DNA of 38,662 nt from a virus: positions 1 through 38,662 of IMG/VR virus record IMGVR_UViG_3300042524_000214. One strand, 5' to 3'. A program made the position numbers and the translations under genes. How positions within the stretch are numbered: position 1 is the first letter of the stretch; each line of letters begins with the position of its first letter. Positions 4,381 through 14,824 of the stretch are shown here, in pieces. The notes beneath the pieces are model-generated. The model saw only the letters and a list, made by a program, of their open reading frames with translations. It was not told the origin of the DNA and did not search any database.

Positions 4381-4719
4381 TTATAGTATAGCTAATTTTT
4401 CGTGGTACTCCGCTTTTAAGGCTTCCCTTTCTTCTAAAATCTCTTTTGGTATTTCGGTGCCGCTAATTACCTTTTTTTGCACATGTGTTGATACTACATT
4501 GTCTATTTTTTTAGAATACTCTTCTCGTAGAACTTCTATTTTTTTAGATTTTATTTCCGCTAGCTTTTCAATATCTGCCCCTTCTATCCAAGAATTGTCT
4601 ACAAATTTTGGTATAGTTAAGTTACTAGGTATTTCCACTGTAGTACTTAATTCTCCTACTGCTACTGCAAATGGTGTTGCATACAATACAAAACCATTTT
4701 TGTCTATTACTATGTTCAT
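4381..4719 (-). CDS. Small coiled-coil protein, possible fibre-assembly or accessory protein
   Basis: A 112-aa protein. Residues 1-45 look like a short beta-rich segment (MNIVIDKNGFVLYATPFAVA), and residues 48-112 are a charged helix rich in Lys and Glu, likely a coiled coil (DIEKLAEIKSKKIEVLREEY). A short beta module followed by a long helix is common in tail-fibre assembly and accessory proteins, but I recognise no family. It follows the 183-aa gene by one base and precedes the gp4-like gene, so it is co-transcribed with tail genes. Confidence 0.6.
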   Translation of the reverse strand: MNIVIDKNGFVLYATPFAVAVGELSTTVEIPSNLTIPKFVDNSWIEGADIEKLAEIKSKKIEVLREEYSKKIDNVVSTHVQKKVISGTEIPKEILEEREALKAEYHEKLAIL

Positions 4720-4720
4720 A

Positions 4721-5272
4721 TTAGTTTATTTTTTTTAATATAACCCCTGTTGTTGTTAAAGTGTTTGTGCCTGTTATTTGATTAACTGAACCTACTACTA
4801 TTATATAATTATCTTTAGTTAGGTCTATTGTGTAGTTGCCATAAGTATTCCCCCAATTAAAATCACTAAAAAAAGAAATCAATTTATTGTTCTGAATCAT
4901 AATTTGAAGTATACTTCCATTAGATGCACCTAAATAACTATTATTATTAGTATAAAGACTAGAGTCTGAAACAGATAAAGGAGTGGCTCCAATTAGACTA
5001 TTAGACGAGTTTATATAAGTTCTTAATTGCGTATTAACAAAATTTTCTGTAAAATTCCAATAATTATAAACAAACAATTCTAAACAATCATTGTTTTTAA
5101 AAGTATTTGCAGGAATAGTTAAAACTCTGCTAATTACCTCTACATTTCCGCCTATAATAGGAATTGTAACAGTACTGTAGTCAGATACTTCAATTGAAGT
5201 CTTTTTGTTCTCTAGTCTGGTTACTTTTGCAATCAGATTTTTTACGTTTGCTTTTAGTTCAAGTGTTGTCAT
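4721..5272 (-). CDS. Putative small fibre or decoration protein
   Basis: A 183-aa protein. An N-terminal heptad-like helix (residues 1-28, MTTLELKANVKNLIAKVTRLENKK) is followed by a Ser, Thr, Asn and aromatic-rich beta domain (about residues 35-183). A trimerising helix followed by a beta head is the usual design of small receptor-binding or decoration proteins; no family is recognised. It has no Cys and no signal peptide. It lies between two connector-type genes, 8 bp after the 187-aa gene, which is an unusual place for a fibre and could mark an insertion into the tail operon. Confidence 0.6.
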   Translation of the reverse strand: MTTLELKANVKNLIAKVTRLENKKTSIEVSDYSTVTIPIIGGNVEVISRVLTIPANTFKNNDCLELFVYNYWNFTENFVNTQLRTYINSSNSLIGATPLSVSDSSLYTNNNSYLGASNGSILQIMIQNNKLISFFSDFNWGNTYGNYTIDLTKDNYIIVVGSVNQITGTNTLTTTGVILKKIN

Positions 5273-6776: not shown

Positions 6777-8048
6777 TTATGTATGTTTAAATCTTATTTT
6801 TGTAAATTCTTTCGAGTCTTTTATATAGTCATATTGTACTACTGAACCAGGTTTAAAATCAATAGGTTTTATTGCTGAAGAAGGCAAACTTGCTACCATT
6901 TTCAATTTACCTAATGCTGGGCTTATAAACTTTTCTTCTCCTACTGTAATTTCAATATGAAACTGTAGATATACAAAGGCACTATCTAAATTATACCGTT
7001 TACCAGAAAACCCTGCTTCTCCTTGAGCATAAGTTTGTCTACTTTGAGAATATCTTTTTTTAGTACCCCTAGTCTCTAAAATTTTTCTAAAAGCTTCTCC
7101 ACCCAATGATGGGTAACTTTGAAAACCCTGACTAGTCCTAAAATAGTGCTCTTGCCCAAAATCTATAACTTGGTATCCTTTTTTTATGGGAACTCTTGTT
7201 AATCTAACTGGGTCTTTGTCTTTGCTAAATTTAAAACTACCCTTCCTATATGTTGTCTCTGGAAAATATTCTAATTGGCTTCCAGGAATAAGCTCTGGAT
7301 TATATGTATGCTTTTTTATAGTAGGTGTGTATTTTGAAATAACTACTACTGGGTTATAGTCTTTTATTTTTTCAAACCCTTGTATTTTTATACCTAAGTT
7401 GTAAATATCTGCTTCTATTAAAACAGGTTTTTTTTCATTTACTGGTGGGTGAATTACTTCATTTGTAGTTGTGTTTAAATAAGGTTTGCCACAACCAATA
7501 AAACCACCTCTTCTATATACATTATCTGTAACACCCAATGTTGGGCTTTGCGGTTTCTTTCTTAAAATATTTCTTGAGTCTTTCCAATCAAAAGACATAC
7601 TAATTTTTTTAAGAGCCTCTTTTGCTGGCTCTGAAATTTCAATCTCTTTATCTGAAGATGATACTTTTATAACTATTGAATCACTTATTGATTTTATTGT
7701 ACGTATCTCTTTTAACCCTTGTAGATTAGTTTGTGCATCTAGTATTCTGTAAGACTGCATTCCATCTCCTATATTTATCAAACCAAAAGATTGAGGTGAG
7801 ACAGGGGATGTGGAAGGAGTCGTTGGGTTTCTTACTGGTAGTGGTTCTCCTAGTACTTGACAAATAAAAGCATCTAATTGCTCAATTAAATCTGTAAGTA
7901 TAGTTCCACTTTTTATTCCAGAACAAGCTAAATCAGCTCCTGTATATAATACACAGTCTGTGGATAAATCCTTTACTGGACATGAGCAATCATTTGATGT
8001 ACAAAGTGGTTGTTGATTGCAATCGTGACATGTTGAGTTTCCGCACAT
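6777..8048 (-). CDS. Tail fibre-type protein with Cys-rich N-terminal adaptor
   Basis: A 423-aa protein. Residues 1-70 form a Cys-rich module (CHDCNQQPLC, then CSCPVKDLSTDC, then CSGIKSGTILTDLIEQLDAFIC) nearly identical to the start of the neighbouring 591-aa protein, so this part probably docks the fibre on a shared virion site. Residues 80-150 are Pro, Ser and Thr-rich and beta-prone; residues 160-423 are a basic Tyr-rich domain with no recognised enzyme motif. The different C-terminal part suggests another receptor or accessory function. The stop is followed at once by the candidate RNA at 6545-6776, and the start lies one base past the stop of the 591-aa gene. Confidence 0.75.
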   Translation of the reverse strand: MCGNSTCHDCNQQPLCTSNDCSCPVKDLSTDCVLYTGADLACSGIKSGTILTDLIEQLDAFICQVLGEPLPVRNPTTPSTSPVSPQSFGLINIGDGMQSYRILDAQTNLQGLKEIRTIKSISDSIVIKVSSSDKEIEISEPAKEALKKISMSFDWKDSRNILRKKPQSPTLGVTDNVYRRGGFIGCGKPYLNTTTNEVIHPPVNEKKPVLIEADIYNLGIKIQGFEKIKDYNPVVVISKYTPTIKKHTYNPELIPGSQLEYFPETTYRKGSFKFSKDKDPVRLTRVPIKKGYQVIDFGQEHYFRTSQGFQSYPSLGGEAFRKILETRGTKKRYSQSRQTYAQGEAGFSGKRYNLDSAFVYLQFHIEITVGEEKFISPALGKLKMVASLPSSAIKPIDFKPGSVVQYDYIKDSKEFTKIRFKHT

Positions 8049-8049
8049 A

Positions 8050-9825
8050 TTATAGTATTTTTGTAAGTGTTAATGTCGATATATTAAAATATATACAGTT
8101 TGATATTAGCCCTGCTGCTATTGCGTTAGCATCACTACTATAAGAAGGTAATGTATTATACATTGCTCCATTTATAGTTGCTATATTCGCTGAAGGTAGT
8201 AGGTAGTCTGTTAATGGTAAGCCTTGCTTAACTAAAATTAGGCTACTTTGGTCAGACCAAACATATTTTTGAGTTGATAAAGGTATTGAACCTGTGTACT
8301 TAAAAGTACCGTAAACTGCATCCCTAGAATATACTGCTGATGCGTTTACATTAGTGAGCTCTACTATACCTGTTGCTTTATCTATTTGTACCAAATTTTT
8401 TGGAAATTCTAAATAGAACTCTCCGCCTTGTACTAACAGTGTGCTATCGCCTACCGTTCTAAAGATTGCACTTTGCCCACCAGCATTTGCCGGGTGGTTT
8501 GTTTGTTCAAAGTTTCTAACCCTCACCCAACTTGATGACCTACCTATAGGATTTGTTGGATAATCATTATCTACAATTATGTTACAAACTGTATCACTGT
8601 TTAGATAATCTACTCCATTAAATGTACTATAATTTCTTCTATTACCATTATAATCCATTATTAAGTTATAAGCTCCACCAGTGGTGTTTTTAAAGTATAA
8701 AGCACTACTTGTTGTAGGGTAAACTTTACAGTCATTAAAAGTAAATGTGCCATCATTAAACCAAGCTACGTTTTCACTTTTTATCATATAAGCATCTCCT
8801 GGTATTGTGTTTTGTGCATACACCGGTGAACCAAAGTGGGTTTGTCCTGTATTAATGTAAGCTGAACTATTTCCTATTTGCCAAGTTGCATCATTAAATT
8901 TACACTTAGTAAAAGACATTCCTGAAGTATTCTGAAAACCTGAAAATGTAGGTGAGGTATAAGATAAGTTATATACAAACTTATTTGTGTAAGCTGTTGC
9001 TATAATTACATTGTTAAACTCCATTTTTATATCGTAGTCTAGTTTTCCTGATATACTTTTTGGGTCTAGCCCAACTAAGTAAGCTGTAGAAATAAAATAG
9101 TCTTGATTACCGTAATAAGATATAGAAAAACCATTTCCTTCTATTTTTAACCTATTTACGGATATATAAGGTAAATCGCTGAATACATTCACATCATTCA
9201 ATAATTCTATTACCCCAGTGTACCCATAAATTGGTGCTAAAATTGTACCTCCATTTGGAGCATCAATAAAAGCATCAATAGCTTTTTTTAGAGTTTTATA
9301 AGGTTTAGCTCTACTACCTGTTTCTATGGCACCATAATAATAAGGGTCAACATAAAAAGTTTTTACATTTGTTACACCAGGGACTTCAATATTTATATTA
9401 TCCCCATCGTCTGAAAAAGTCAAGGTATCACTATCTAAACTTTTTGCTGTTATTAATAAACCATTCTGTGTATCATAGCTGACATCTTTTAGTATTTCTG
9501 CTACTTTTCTTCCAGAGTTTTCGGTTTTTATTGTTCTTATTTTTTGCTTACCTGTTGGGTCTACTCCGGCATATACCGGCTCTCCTTCTCCTACGCTTAA
9601 AAATTCAACACCTGAGCCTAATGCTATGCAAATAAAATTATCAAGTTGTTGTATTAATTCAGTAAGTATTGTTTTATCTTTTATTCCAGAACATTTTAAA
9701 TCCCCACCAGTGTATAAAATACAATCCGTGGATAAGTCTTTTACTGGGCAAGAGCAATCATTTGATTCACAAAGTGGTTGTTGATTGCAATCGTGACAAG
9801 TTGTATTTTGGCAATTGCTGCACAT
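8050..9825 (-). CDS. Tail spike-like protein with predicted right-handed beta-helix
   Basis: A 591-aa protein. Residues 1-68 repeat the Cys-rich adaptor of its neighbour (CHDCNQQPLC, CSCPVKDLSTDC). From about residue 155 the sequence has TFYVDPYYYGAIETGSRAKP then YKTLKKAIDAF, the usual entry into a pectate-lyase-type beta-helix (a VDP...GS..KPYKTL..AIDA pattern), followed by about 350 residues of Asn, Thr and Gly-rich short strands. Such domains form trimeric spikes that bind or cut surface polysaccharide. I see no confident catalytic residues, so binding without cleavage is equally possible. Adaptor and fold are visible; substrate is unknown. Confidence 0.8.
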   Translation of the reverse strand: MCSNCQNTTCHDCNQQPLCESNDCSCPVKDLSTDCILYTGGDLKCSGIKDKTILTELIQQLDNFICIALGSGVEFLSVGEGEPVYAGVDPTGKQKIRTIKTENSGRKVAEILKDVSYDTQNGLLITAKSLDSDTLTFSDDGDNINIEVPGVTNVKTFYVDPYYYGAIETGSRAKPYKTLKKAIDAFIDAPNGGTILAPIYGYTGVIELLNDVNVFSDLPYISVNRLKIEGNGFSISYYGNQDYFISTAYLVGLDPKSISGKLDYDIKMEFNNVIIATAYTNKFVYNLSYTSPTFSGFQNTSGMSFTKCKFNDATWQIGNSSAYINTGQTHFGSPVYAQNTIPGDAYMIKSENVAWFNDGTFTFNDCKVYPTTSSALYFKNTTGGAYNLIMDYNGNRRNYSTFNGVDYLNSDTVCNIIVDNDYPTNPIGRSSSWVRVRNFEQTNHPANAGGQSAIFRTVGDSTLLVQGGEFYLEFPKNLVQIDKATGIVELTNVNASAVYSRDAVYGTFKYTGSIPLSTQKYVWSDQSSLILVKQGLPLTDYLLPSANIATINGAMYNTLPSYSSDANAIAAGLISNCIYFNISTLTLTKIL

Positions 9826-10117: not shown

Positions 10118-10552
10118 TTAAGGTGTTGTGTTATCTAATAAGTATCCTAGCAATTCTCCTAATGTAGAGAAAGTTCCTCCACATGGGTTATCTGGCAATG
10201 TTAAACCACAGTTTGTAATATCCATATCGCATATTGCTGTTGTCTCTAAGGTATTTACCCTATCTTTTAAATCACAAATTTCTTGTTCTAATTGTAGGAT
10301 AACATTTTTTATTATTAAACCTTGTCTACTTGGTGGGTAGTCTATGGTAGGACAATTACCCAATGCCGACATATCTATTTCAGATAAGATTTCTGCTAAG
10401 ATATTATACTGGTCTTCAGTAGTTTCCTCTAAAGTAATACAATCTTCTCCTACTAAACTAGAAAAATCTGGAACTTCTAATTCGTAGTATACGCATGTAG
10501 CATAGTTTTTTTCAGCACATGTATGTTTTATTTTATTCCCACAGTTTTTCAT
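10118..10552 (-). CDS. Cys-rich fibre-region adaptor protein
   Basis: A 144-aa acidic protein starting MKNCGNKIKHTCAEKNYATC. Ten or so Cys are spread along it (CVYYELEVPDFSSLVGEDC, ICDMDITNCGL, NPCGG). The part TRQGLIIKNVILQLEQEICD-like helix (about residues 80-105) is followed by GGTFSTLGELLGYLLDN, again like the oligomerising helix of the other fibre adaptors. Start and previous stop overlap as ATGA (10552-10549), pointing to coupled translation with the 47-aa protein. Probably a structural fibre-network component; no enzyme motif is seen. Confidence 0.65.
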   Translation of the reverse strand: MKNCGNKIKHTCAEKNYATCVYYELEVPDFSSLVGEDCITLEETTEDQYNILAEILSEIDMSALGNCPTIDYPPSRQGLIIKNVILQLEQEICDLKDRVNTLETTAICDMDITNCGLTLPDNPCGGTFSTLGELLGYLLDNTTP

Positions 10553-10692
10553 CCTTGCCCTTTGTTTAGTTTTTTGTAATTTTTTGAAGTTTTTAGTTTT
10601 GAAGTCTTGCTCTTAGCATGAATTCCTGGTCTTTTTCTTTTAGACTTTTCTCTAAAAGTTTCTGAACTAATGTTTTTATTCTTTGCTGCCAC
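10549..10692 (-). CDS. Small basic protein with GTG start
   Basis: A 47-aa open frame starting with GTG at 10692. The product is strongly basic: VAAKNKNISSETFREKSKRK, then RPGIHAKSKTSK and finally NYKKLNKGQG. Its stop overlaps the ATG of the next gene in an ATGA arrangement, a strong sign that it is translated. Short proteins with an RPGIHAK(S/T)KTSK core and a ...YKK...GQG end are, to my memory, widespread beside fibre genes in Bacteroidota phages, with unknown role; RNA or DNA binding is possible given the charge. It follows the large structured RNA by about 20 nt. Confidence 0.7.
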   Translation of the reverse strand: MAAKNKNISSETFREKSKRKRPGIHAKSKTSKLKTSKNYKKLNKGQG

Positions 10693-10711
10693 TTTTTTAT
10701 ATTTTATGTTG

Positions 10712-11431
10712 TTAAAAATTAAAGGAGAGAAGAGCCCTTTATGCTATAAAAGACTCTTAGTATCTATTGGTACTAACTATAGTAAGATATACCAATCCTG
10801 TGTCTCTCTCTTTCGGAAATAAAATTCAGAACTTATTTTAAACACCCTTACGAATGCCGGAGTAATTTATCTCTAAACTACTTCACTTTCTAGACTGCTC
10901 CATCACCAAGTTTCTACGATTAGGTTATTAGCCCGAAGACCCCTATTAACCAGAGTCCCCTCGTTTCCACTCGTTAGTTTATGGCATGCACCCATTTCAG
11001 AACTGCTAAACTAGTAAGAAATCTTAAATCATTCTTCTATTTCCAGAAAACCAAACTAGTCAAAAAAGATATTCAACCTTACAAAATAACTCAAAGAGTT
11101 ATTAATTAATCTGTAACTCAACTTGCTCACAAAGGGGCAAGCCCCGATGCGAGTTCAAATTACATGGGCGAACCCACGCAACTATCAAACATATTTCACT
11201 GTCCTTTTTTAAGTTGCTGCCTCCCGTCCTGTCAAGGATAGAGAAACAATTAAAGCGTAAAGCCTACAACTTCATTTTTTAACTATCTACAAATAAGCCT
11301 GACTAAGCAGTCCTGCGACCTCACGTGCCGCTTACCTCGAAACCGAGAGTTTTGCACCTTTCGGTAACAAATGTTTAGTAGCAAATAGGTGGTTTACCCT
11401 CCCTATCAGTTCTAGTCTTCTTTTAATATTT
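10712..11431 (-). ncRNA. Large structured RNA candidate, about 700 nt
   Basis: No reading frame of note crosses this gap. On the minus strand I find many stable hairpins, given here by plus coordinates: UUCG loop on TGGG/CCCA extendable to 11 bp (11165-11176 core); CUUG loop on GGGG/CCCC (11134-11145), extended by CTCGC/GTGAG; GAAA loop on ACC/GGT (11356-11365); an 8-bp stem AATAACTC/GAGTTATT (11085-11103); TCCT/AGGA (11227-11238); GACT/AGTC (11301-11312); CTCG/CGAG (11336-11347); ATGG/CCAT (10981-10995); GGTTATTAG/CTATTAACC with one A-A mismatch (10923-10951); ATTGGTA/TACCAAT (10766-10796); and a 13-bp hairpin at 10730-10758. The special tetraloops exist only on the minus strand. Size and phage context recall the large ornate RNAs GOLLD and ROOL, but I cannot match it to either. 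Confidence 0.7.
10730..10758 (-). terminator. 13-bp hairpin at the 3' end of the large RNA, possible terminator
   Basis: On the minus strand AAGAGTCTTTTAT pairs with ATAAAGGGCTCTT (13 bp, two G-U pairs) around an AGC loop. A TTTAATTTTT tract follows after about six bases. It may terminate or mark the 3' boundary of the large RNA; the U-tract is offset, and the next gene lies only 40 bp downstream, so read-through or processing is also possible. Confidence 0.5.
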
Positions 11432-12274
11432 TTATGCTTGTTGTTCTACAACGTCTTGCCCCGGTAAAGGTCTCTTTTTATCTACTGGAAGTACCTCTAT
11501 AATTTTTTCTAATCTGCCTTTAGCAATAATTAAATTGTCTAATACTGGTTTTAAGTTTGTATAAAGTCTTTGTCTATATTCTGATACCCCTAATACCCCG
11601 GTAGTCTCATACATAGTTACTAGTTCTTTTGTTGCCTCAAGCACGCCTGATTTATTTAGCGTTTCCAATAGAAATAGTTCTCTATCTATAACTACGGACA
11701 CCCCTAAAGTTTGTTTTTTTATTGAGGATAATCTTCTAATAGCTCTTTCTGCATTTAGTATCTCCCCTTCTATTTTATCTAATCCCTCTTTTAATTTAAT
11801 AGTTGTTGCTCCAACTTCTCTTAGGTATACCTCTTCAAAAATATTTTCCTCTATGGTGATTATATCTAATGTATAACTAGAGTCTTTTTTTGGTGCTTCT
11901 GTAAAGTAGAAACTCGTAAAAATATAAGGTGTTTGTCCGTTTGCTACTCTATTTAATATAAAGTCATTTAATAATTCATTATCATCTGATATTGTAACAA
12001 ATGATGTTTTTTTTCCATCAATGACTAGAGATAATGATAGACTAAAATATACTACTTGGTCTAATAGTTCTGGTACGTCAAAACTTAATGACTTAGATAA
12101 GTTTTTTTTATTTACTTTTCCTATTTTTTTTACTAATATCTCTCCAAAATCATTCCAAACAAGTATGTCATAGTCTACTATAGAGGACATGTTGTCTAAT
12201 GCTCCCAAATTAAATTCTGGGTGCTCGTAGATATTTATGTTTAATTTTTTTGTTTTGCTGTCAGAACTAATCAT
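11432..12274 (-). CDS. Unknown fibre-region structural protein
   Basis: A 280-aa protein. Residues 1-150 are beta-rich with alternating hydrophobic residues (DILVWNDFGEILVKKIGK, DIITIEENIFEEVYLREVG); residues 155-275 are mostly charged helix (EGLDKIEGEILNAERAIRRL) and end in a Pro-rich tail (KKRPLPGQDVVEQQA). A beta head plus long helices fits a tail-fibre chaperone or baseplate component, but no family is recognised. It directly precedes the large structured RNA, which starts at or just beyond its stop codon. Confidence 0.65.
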   Translation of the reverse strand: MISSDSKTKKLNINIYEHPEFNLGALDNMSSIVDYDILVWNDFGEILVKKIGKVNKKNLSKSLSFDVPELLDQVVYFSLSLSLVIDGKKTSFVTISDDNELLNDFILNRVANGQTPYIFTSFYFTEAPKKDSSYTLDIITIEENIFEEVYLREVGATTIKLKEGLDKIEGEILNAERAIRRLSSIKKQTLGVSVVIDRELFLLETLNKSGVLEATKELVTMYETTGVLGVSEYRQRLYTNLKPVLDNLIIAKGRLEKIIEVLPVDKKRPLPGQDVVEQQA

Positions 12275-12275
12275 T

Positions 12276-12668
12276 TTATTTAAAGTTTTTTATTGATGTT
12301 ACTATACCGTTTTTTATTGATGCTTTACTGTTACCGAGTATAAATGTACCTGTTACTCCTCTTTGTTCCGAAACTATCCTATCTAATTCAGATATTTTTT
12401 GTTCCATTATTTCTATAATTCCTATTAAAAACTCTATAGCATCATTATGCGTAGTTGTCTTTTTAATACTTTTAAGAATCCTATCTGTATGCTTTGTTGA
12501 TGCTACTTGATTTTCTATGTCATATAGTGTTAACTCTTTGGTTTCTTTTACGGTGCCCCCCTCGGATAAAAATTTTACGTATTCTTTATAAGCTGGGTTA
12601 ATGTCCTCCATTATAAGCCTTTCTCCATCTACAGCTATTGTGCCTTGTCTATTTATAGTATATTCCAT
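12276..12668 (-). CDS. Unknown small fibre-associated protein
   Basis: A 130-aa protein. An N-terminal MEYTINRQGTIAVDGERLIM segment resembles short beta hairpins of fibre-assembly proteins; residues 40-100 form a helical region (DAIEFLIGIIEIMEQKISEL), and the end is Gly, Ser and Lys-rich. Its ATG overlaps the last base of the 718-aa fibre gene stop (TAATG type), and its own stop lies one base from the next start, so all three are coupled. A chaperone or capping role for the preceding fibre is plausible but unproven. Confidence 0.6.
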   Translation of the reverse strand: MEYTINRQGTIAVDGERLIMEDINPAYKEYVKFLSEGGTVKETKELTLYDIENQVASTKHTDRILKSIKKTTTHNDAIEFLIGIIEIMEQKISELDRIVSEQRGVTGTFILGNSKASIKNGIVTSIKNFK

Positions 12669-14824
12669 TAGCTTGATATTGCGTTTCTTTTAGTTGCTAT
12701 ACATCCGTAATCTTTAATACTACATGCTCCTGATACAGCTGTATTGTTACCTATCCAAAGAAAAGGATAATAGCTTGCACCTGTATTGTAATCACTTGTA
12801 ATACTATAAGAAGTGCTTGTTACAACTCCTGTTGAGTTTACTATCTTAGTCAATTCAATAAAAATTACTGGTACTTGAAAAAGTTTGTATATTCTTAGTT
12901 TGTATGTGCATGTTGTATCAGTTCCTAAAAATCCTGAACCTAAGTCTATACTTGATGCTGTTCCTGTAGCATCATTCCATACAAAAAATAAATTTGGTGA
13001 ACCTTGTAATTTTGCTACTCCTATAGAGTTTATAAGAGTTGTTGGCTCTACATTAGTTGGGGCTGTCGTGTTATATAATGATGATATTCCTACGAATAAC
13101 CTTTGTGCTCCATTGTTAGTGTTTACTCTAAATTTTCTAATTATTTCAAATTGAAAGCCGACACCTAAATAGCCTGAGCCTCCAAATGGATTACCATATA
13201 AACCGGCTGCTGAACCAACTGCTGTTGCTGTTGTATATAAAACCCCCATTGGATTTTCACTTAGTGAAGTTGCTGTACCAAAACTTGTCAATGTTCCACC
13301 AACTCTTAATGTATCATAAAATGTAATACTATCCATTGGTAAGAAGTAAGCAAACTGGTTTGTCATAAACTTGTCGTACAAAAATGTACTGTCGTTTGCT
13401 GGAGTATATCCTAACCATGCAGCTATTGTCTTGTTTACCCAAAGTGTTCCATTAAATCCTAATACATCTCCATTTACTGGGATTGTAGTCTTTAAGTCCA
13501 CATTATGTAGCTCTTCTATCTCAAATCCGTTTTGTACCTTAACAAAAATTTCTCCATTACCGGCACTAACTTTTGTTACTATTCCTATGAATACTAGATG
13601 AGCCGGTGCGTAAGGTTTCCCTACTAATCCATAGATTAACGCTCCATTTACCCCTAACCATACTGGGTCTCCTGCTGTTTGTCCTGCTGTATTTAATCCT
13701 CCTAAAAGACCTTCAGTAACTACAAATCCTGTTTGTGTTCCACCGGTAGTTGTAATATCGGATTGCATCAATCCTATAGTCTTACTTGAGGTGGCTTCAG
13801 AAGTGTTGCTCGCTGCTCTTACAAGTATGTTGGTTCCATTTGCTCCTGTAGAATATACTGGAGTACCTTTTGTTATTAAGGCAGTTCCGTCATTTTTTAC
13901 AATGTGTTTTACTACAGAAGTCCAATCAGCATAATTTTCTTGCCAAGTAGCGTTATAATCTGTAGCATCTACTTTTGTAAGTATCTGTCCTGCTGTACCT
14001 CCTGGTGGTAATGTTCCAACAGTTAATGGTGCTAAATCTGCAAAGGTTACGTAGTTACTTACACCATTACCATTATTTATAAATGAGGATGTGCTTGTAG
14101 GTCTATTCCTTAAAAAGGATGAACCTGATGTAGCTGCCCAATCTGTTTGTTCTTGGTCTATTAAATTTCCTACTCCTAAATCTGTCCAGTATAAATTTCC
14201 ACCTATTGCTGGTGTAATACTGTCGTTATTAAAATTAGCTCGAAATATATGACCAGAATAGTAAACTAATGTTCCTGCTAAATATGGATTACCTGTTGCT
14301 GCTATGTGGTTTGTTGTCCACTCTGTTGCTGCTAATGCCGATGGTGGTATGGATGCTGCTGTTATATAACCTGCATCATTAACCAATTCTGAAATATTAT
14401 CTCCTGGCTGTATTGCACTATTAATTAGTGCTTGTAATGTTCCAGAAATTTGTAACTCTAAAGCTGAAGATGTACTTACTATATCTATAGACCCATCTGG
14501 GCTAGTTATAGGCTTTACAAAGAGCTTTCCGTCACTCGTGGCTATCTCTAATAGATTTCCTAATTCGGAGCTCTTAAAAGTGCTTATATCAATTATTGGG
14601 TTTACTGGACTTCCTGTTACCCCTGTTCCGGTTACTGATTGTACAGTTCCTGTTCCTCCTCCACCGCCCCCGGTTAAATCCACTAAAGGATAAGGAAAAC
14701 CGTTTTGGTCTGTTATATATGTTTTAACAGTACTTTGAGAAGTTGCTTTTACATAATACACAGAGTTTGGTCTGGGTAATGTAGGTAGGCTTTTTACTTT
14801 ATAGTGTTTTACTTCTTCTTGCAT
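12668..14824 (-). CDS. Long tail fibre protein
   Basis: A 718-aa protein. Residues 1-50 form a head-binding segment (LPTLPRPNSVYYVKATSQST), followed by a Gly-rich hinge (DLTGGGGGGTGTVQSVTGTG, about residues 49-68). The middle is Thr, Gly and Asn-rich with fibre signatures (PPGGTAGQILTKVDATDYNA near residue 275, ending in TWQE). Residues about 300-440 (IVKNDGTALITKGTPVYSTG onward) form a beta domain often seen in fibres, and residues 490-718 a jelly-roll-like tip. No enzyme motif is seen. The C-terminal third is the most likely receptor-binding part. It follows the 114-aa gene by 26 bp. Confidence 0.85.
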   Translation of the reverse strand: MQEEVKHYKVKSLPTLPRPNSVYYVKATSQSTVKTYITDQNGFPYPLVDLTGGGGGGTGTVQSVTGTGVTGSPVNPIIDISTFKSSELGNLLEIATSDGKLFVKPITSPDGSIDIVSTSSALELQISGTLQALINSAIQPGDNISELVNDAGYITAASIPPSALAATEWTTNHIAATGNPYLAGTLVYYSGHIFRANFNNDSITPAIGGNLYWTDLGVGNLIDQEQTDWAATSGSSFLRNRPTSTSSFINNGNGVSNYVTFADLAPLTVGTLPPGGTAGQILTKVDATDYNATWQENYADWTSVVKHIVKNDGTALITKGTPVYSTGANGTNILVRAASNTSEATSSKTIGLMQSDITTTGGTQTGFVVTEGLLGGLNTAGQTAGDPVWLGVNGALIYGLVGKPYAPAHLVFIGIVTKVSAGNGEIFVKVQNGFEIEELHNVDLKTTIPVNGDVLGFNGTLWVNKTIAAWLGYTPANDSTFLYDKFMTNQFAYFLPMDSITFYDTLRVGGTLTSFGTATSLSENPMGVLYTTATAVGSAAGLYGNPFGGSGYLGVGFQFEIIRKFRVNTNNGAQRLFVGISSLYNTTAPTNVEPTTLINSIGVAKLQGSPNLFFVWNDATGTASSIDLGSGFLGTDTTCTYKLRIYKLFQVPVIFIELTKIVNSTGVVTSTSYSITSDYNTGASYYPFLWIGNNTAVSGACSIKDYGCIATKRNAISS

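Follow-up and report, generated by a model that had tools for sequence, protein, structure and literature searches.

To our knowledge, very few RNAs of about 700 nt have been described from bacteria and phages, and the functions of most of them are unsolved. One of them, ROOL, is a very abundant stand-alone transcript. Another, GOLLD, is encoded by phages or prophages, has a length of about 700-800+ nt and an elaborate predicted structure, and gives no protein product; it forms a homo-oligomeric RNA cage and is increasingly expressed during lysis (PMC12286853). Phages are known to carry large RNAs whose function is unsolved (PMC12286853). Here we describe a candidate structured RNA from a DNA stretch of 38,662 nucleotides (the window), which is part of a 131,453-base virus genome from IMG/VR.

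Judged by profile matches, this phage is crAss-like: its portal matched phrog_6547, its terminase phrog_6681 and the capsid region phrog_35737, and the crAss tail ring protein (Pfam CrAss_Ring_1) was matched as well. The nearest named records, found with a 668-aa structural protein, are Cellulophaga phages (e.g., phi17:2, Lightbulbvirus), and the gene order around the terminase, portal and tail genes runs parallel to that of Cellulophaga phages such as phi17:2. The candidate lies in a leftward tail operon, between an orphan gene of 280 aa and a gene for a basic protein of 47 aa. It had been assigned to a fibre operon; this assignment is based on synteny with tail genes, and no profile identified the flanking proteins as fibres. 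The 280-aa protein had no match in Pfam, PHROG or NCBIfam and no tblastn relative, searches of IMG/VR, GTDB and phages that started from it also brought up no relative, and its predicted structure was a poor model (pLDDT 46). Compared with contigs L002-L017, the tail-region genes of the minus strand (12668-14824 and 6777-9825) are modular, with conserved N-terminal parts and exchanged remainders; the slot that separates the 718-aa from the 47-aa gene is hypervariable.

The full gap comprises positions 10693-11431, since the GTG start of the downstream gene is at 10692 and not just before 10712, where the gap had been taken to begin. Its boundaries coincide with the ends of intact flanking genes. 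Under the standard code, the minus strand of the gap is closed in all frames, and reassignment of one stop codon does not open any of them, because all three stop codons are present in every minus-strand frame. Described originally as the longest gap without a coding frame in the window, it proved to be the longest ORF-free stretch of the entire 131,453-base record. Its G+C content is 0.38 (locally up to 0.45), compared with 0.34 in the genome. The translated frames of the gap revealed no similarity to tail genes in the related loci of relatives. A recoded or decayed gene was rejected, as there is neither a frame nor protein similarity.

All helices, tetraloops and hairpins named in the original prediction were found in their places on the minus strand, and none of the named hairpin motifs occurs on the plus strand of the gap (Table 1). 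We counted hairpins with a UNCG, GNRA or CUUG loop and a stem of at least 4 bp including at least two GC pairs. There were five of them on the minus strand of the gap and none on the plus strand. The minus-strand direction deduced from the tetraloops is well supported. Dinucleotide shuffles contained 0.21 such hairpins on average, and not one of 20,000 shuffles reached five or more. Nowhere else in the genome do 720 bases of either strand contain as many, which makes the gap the densest cluster. This enrichment in tetraloop hairpins is the strongest evidence that the gap is more than a chance sequence.

Table 1. Candidate structured RNA, its predicted elements and the neighboring genes (window coordinates)
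Feature	Position	Strand	Basis
Upstream gene, 280 aa, orphan	11432..12274	-	profile and tblastn searches
ORF-free gap with candidate structured RNA (RNA core ~10721-11420)	10693..11431	-	
5' part: GAAA, GUUU and GCGGC/GUCGC hairpins	11315..11420	-	base-pair probabilities, sequence
GAAA-tetraloop hairpin	11365-11356, C(GAAA)G at 11363-11358	-	
GUUU-loop hairpin	11347-11336	-	base-pair probabilities
Hairpin GCGGC/GUCGC	11331-11315	-	
Multibranched domain closed by UAGUUAAAAAAUGA/UCUUUUUUGACUA, with UUCG, CUUG and 8-bp hairpins	11057..11285	-	fold, pair probabilities
UUCG hairpin	11182-11159, G(UUCG)C at 11173-11168	-	
CUUG hairpin	11153-11126, GGGG-CUUG-CCCC at 11145-11134	-	
Perfect 8-bp hairpin AAUAACUC-UUU-GAGUUAUU	11103-11085	-	
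3' domain: GGGGACUCU/GGGGUCUUC or, alternatively, UUCG hairpin 10951-10923; GAGA-loop hairpin	10861..11013	-	fold
8-bp helix with a single A.A mismatch, GGUUAAUAG/CUAAUAACC	10951-10923, C(UUCG)G at 10938-10933	-	
9-bp GAGA-loop hairpin	10882-10861	-	
Stem-loop domain at the 3' end, closing stem AAAGAGAGAGA/UCUCUCCUUU, with 12-13-bp hairpin, then UUUAAUUUUU	10721..10813	-	
12-13-bp 3' hairpin	10758-10730	-	
Downstream gene (GTG start at 10692) for a basic protein of 47 aa, kept in related phages	10549..10692	-	
Next gene, 144 aa, phrog_30281, kept in related phages	10118..10552	-	

The minimum free energy of the region is -200.9 kcal/mol, and the energy z-score of the whole region is about -3.2 (60 shuffles); an earlier value of -7.4, obtained with 20 shuffles, was rejected as a small-sample effect. 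The 720-nt windows sampled from the genome have a mean z-score of -1.3 (sd 1.3), about nine of 90 are as low as the gap, and some coding windows have values like that of the gap. In absolute ensemble energy, the gap ranks lowest among 182 sampled windows. The mean positional entropy is no lower than in shuffles; thus, base-pair certainty is ordinary and the exact fold is provisional. Local 200-nt folds across the region have unremarkable z-scores. The best-supported part is the 229-nt multibranched domain (z-score of -3.98, 60 shuffles), while the 3' half as a whole has a z-score of only -1.1. The computed folding energy provides modest backing for a structure, weaker than that of the tetraloops.

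These figures bear on the view that the region is a non-functional sequence, a decayed gene or a recombination scar with incidental hairpins. The modest energy z-score relative to the genome background and the ordinary base-pair certainty are consistent with it, as is the occurrence of the gap as a singleton inside a hypervariable cassette. It has to be set against the tetraloop hairpins, which are confined to one strand and not matched by any shuffle, and against the translated frames, which are unlike the tail genes of relatives. Besides, phage genomes rarely retain 700 idle bases. We therefore regard a non-functional origin as unlikely, though of the alternatives considered here it is the one to be taken most seriously.

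Comparison of this kilobase with Rfam gave no match at the gathering threshold or at E <= 10 beyond chance hits (such as U12 and SNORD111). Therefore, recognisable GOLLD, ROOL, OLE, introns, RNase P, tmRNA and small ribozymes are excluded, and the absence of a GOLLD or ROOL match, as first claimed, holds even at E = 10. A search for tRNA and tmRNA genes in the window was also negative. A diversity-generating retroelement (DGR), which would come with a reverse transcriptase gene and a near-repeat of its template in a target gene, or a retron was rejected, as the genome contains no reverse transcriptase and the gap is not repeated: no repeat of it longer than 18 bases was found in the 38.7-kb window, and the only blastn match of the gap in the 131-kb record was the gap itself. 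An intron within a gene, for which a split gene and a conserved catalytic core (P7 or domain V) would be expected, was rejected too, since the flanking genes are intact and there is neither an Rfam intron match nor a reverse transcriptase.

The region might also represent a mobile ribozyme, either degenerate or strongly diverged (group I/II intron-like or another catalytic RNA), in a recombination hot spot. A large tetraloop-rich RNA in a hypervariable slot between intact genes, with orphan neighbors, would suit such an element. However, no intron or ribozyme of Rfam was matched at E = 10, no reverse transcriptase is encoded in the genome, and no interrupted gene is present on either side, which makes a mobile ribozyme improbable.

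The 144-aa, the 47-aa and the capsid gene were used to gather related contigs. When 22 such IMG/VR contigs were searched with the region, blastn revealed only short low-scoring hits of about 14-43 bases, and the two best-scoring recurring ones (in L019 and L020) fall in apparent coding sequence. Against phages and plasmids, too, blastn gave short chance hits only. Three segments of the RNA were used in exact-pattern scans of IMG/VR; the matches were limited to the pattern itself, mostly in G+C-rich or coding contexts, and a 19-base pattern had no match in GTDB genomes. Two single-sequence covariance models (R1 and R2), which are of low sensitivity and had no positive control, found nothing in 21 related contigs. 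No homolog of the candidate RNA was thus found, leaving neither covariation nor purifying selection in its favor. In the related contigs, the slot upstream of the pair of 47-aa and 144-aa genes contains no comparable gap and is occupied by other variable genes. Because the same slot exists in relatives without the RNA and no homolog was found, the RNA would be an accessory element, placed where the tail-region genes give way to the conserved 47-aa/144-aa pair. It looks as if it was acquired together with, or near, its orphan neighbors.

Several other features of this lineage should be mentioned. In the close relative L009, the gene that lies just upstream of that for the 144-aa protein has at its end (~4700-4985) a sequence that by eye resembles a type IX secretion (T9SS type A) sorting domain. 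In the phage genome itself, a gap of ~400 bases (L027:8850-9460; genome ~47.5-48.1 kb) contains a 52-aa frame with an almost identical hairpin, GCCCCTTGAAAGAGGGG, on each side; the two are possibly terminators or regulatory hairpins. A permuted tmRNA is encoded on the plus strand between tRNA-Met genes (genome 71754-72014; L028:13092-13352); it matched Rfam RF04321 with 57.3 bits, and ARAGORN gave the tag DNVYQLGGVQLRAVA. The permuted tmRNA was also found in relatives, above the cut-off in G006, G007 and G009 and below it in G015; having been detected with a curated family model, it serves as a loose positive control only. A literature search brought up one phage paper with a mention of a permuted tmRNA, on a marine methylophage (PMC9004378).

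The position of the gap suggests one more alternative, namely a cis element of the tail mRNA. The region could be a structured leader, or a spacer, of unusual length that governs how the message of the 47-aa and 144-aa genes is stabilized, processed or translated, or its 3' stem-loop could terminate or attenuate transcription. The region is directly upstream of the 47-aa gene and has the same direction. At the end of its 3' domain, a closing stem encloses the 12-13-bp hairpin and UUUAAUUUUU comes next, a possible weak terminator. An own promoter is not apparent, as the promoter scan revealed nothing above chance expectation. However, relatives L007, L008, L010-L012 and L035 have the 47-aa and 144-aa genes without such a leader, and 700 nt far exceeds what the regulation of one small gene needs. 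Terminator-like sites are no more frequent than by chance (one seen in the scanned region, 1.0 expected). A cis element is thus rather unlikely, slightly more so than a non-functional sequence.

We tentatively prefer, with somewhat less than even confidence, the explanation that a genuine noncoding RNA of ~700 nt is encoded in the gap, one that is transcribed leftward together with the tail genes, folds, is accessory and acts in trans late in infection. In its favor are the missing coding frame, the tetraloop hairpins of one strand, the folding energy, the G+C content above that of the genome and the fit of the boundaries to intact genes. Against it stand the lack of any homolog, and hence of covariation or purifying selection, a z-score also reached by some coding windows, ordinary base-pair certainty, promoter and terminator signals at chance level, and relatives that do without the element. 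With no separate promoter visible, the RNA would be made within the late leftward tail transcript and could then persist or be processed into a compact folded molecule. It may act late in infection in trans rather than merely regulating its neighbors; we infer such a role only because of its size, its compactness and the habit of phages of carrying large RNAs. By analogy with what has been guessed for GOLLD and ROOL, it might bind or enclose something, or bind a host RNA or protein.

The original view of a large, noncoding, strand-specific structured region with no Rfam counterpart is retained, whereas the new class that it proposed is possible and unproven; transcription as a separate RNA, and a role in the virion or infected cell, would likewise be conjectural. 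A class of ~700-nt RNAs that crAss-like phages produce from their late tail operon, acting in trans and unrelated in sequence to GOLLD, ROOL, OLE or any Rfam family, is a speculation to which we give slightly less credence than to the folded RNA itself. If true, the crAss-like lineage would add a further class of large RNAs and offer a handle on the role of such RNAs in infection. The candidate is a single sequence, and its chief value is as a target for metagenome searching and probing.

Among the known systems, group I and group II introns are likewise large tetraloop-rich RNAs found in phages, but the gap RNA differs from them in having no Rfam match, no split gene and no reverse transcriptase. 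GOLLD and ROOL are its only counterparts in size, but it cannot be assigned to either of them. A match to the GOLLD covariance model is absent even at E = 10, and GOLLD is often located near tRNA islands, whereas the gap RNA is at 11 kb and the tRNAs of the phage are at ~41 and 71-72 kb. It also lacks a match to the ROOL covariance model and, as said, is not near tRNAs. At the same time, the gap RNA resembles ROOL in its similar size, phage setting and noncoding nature, and it is like GOLLD in its phage setting, size, elaborate predicted structure and lack of a protein product.
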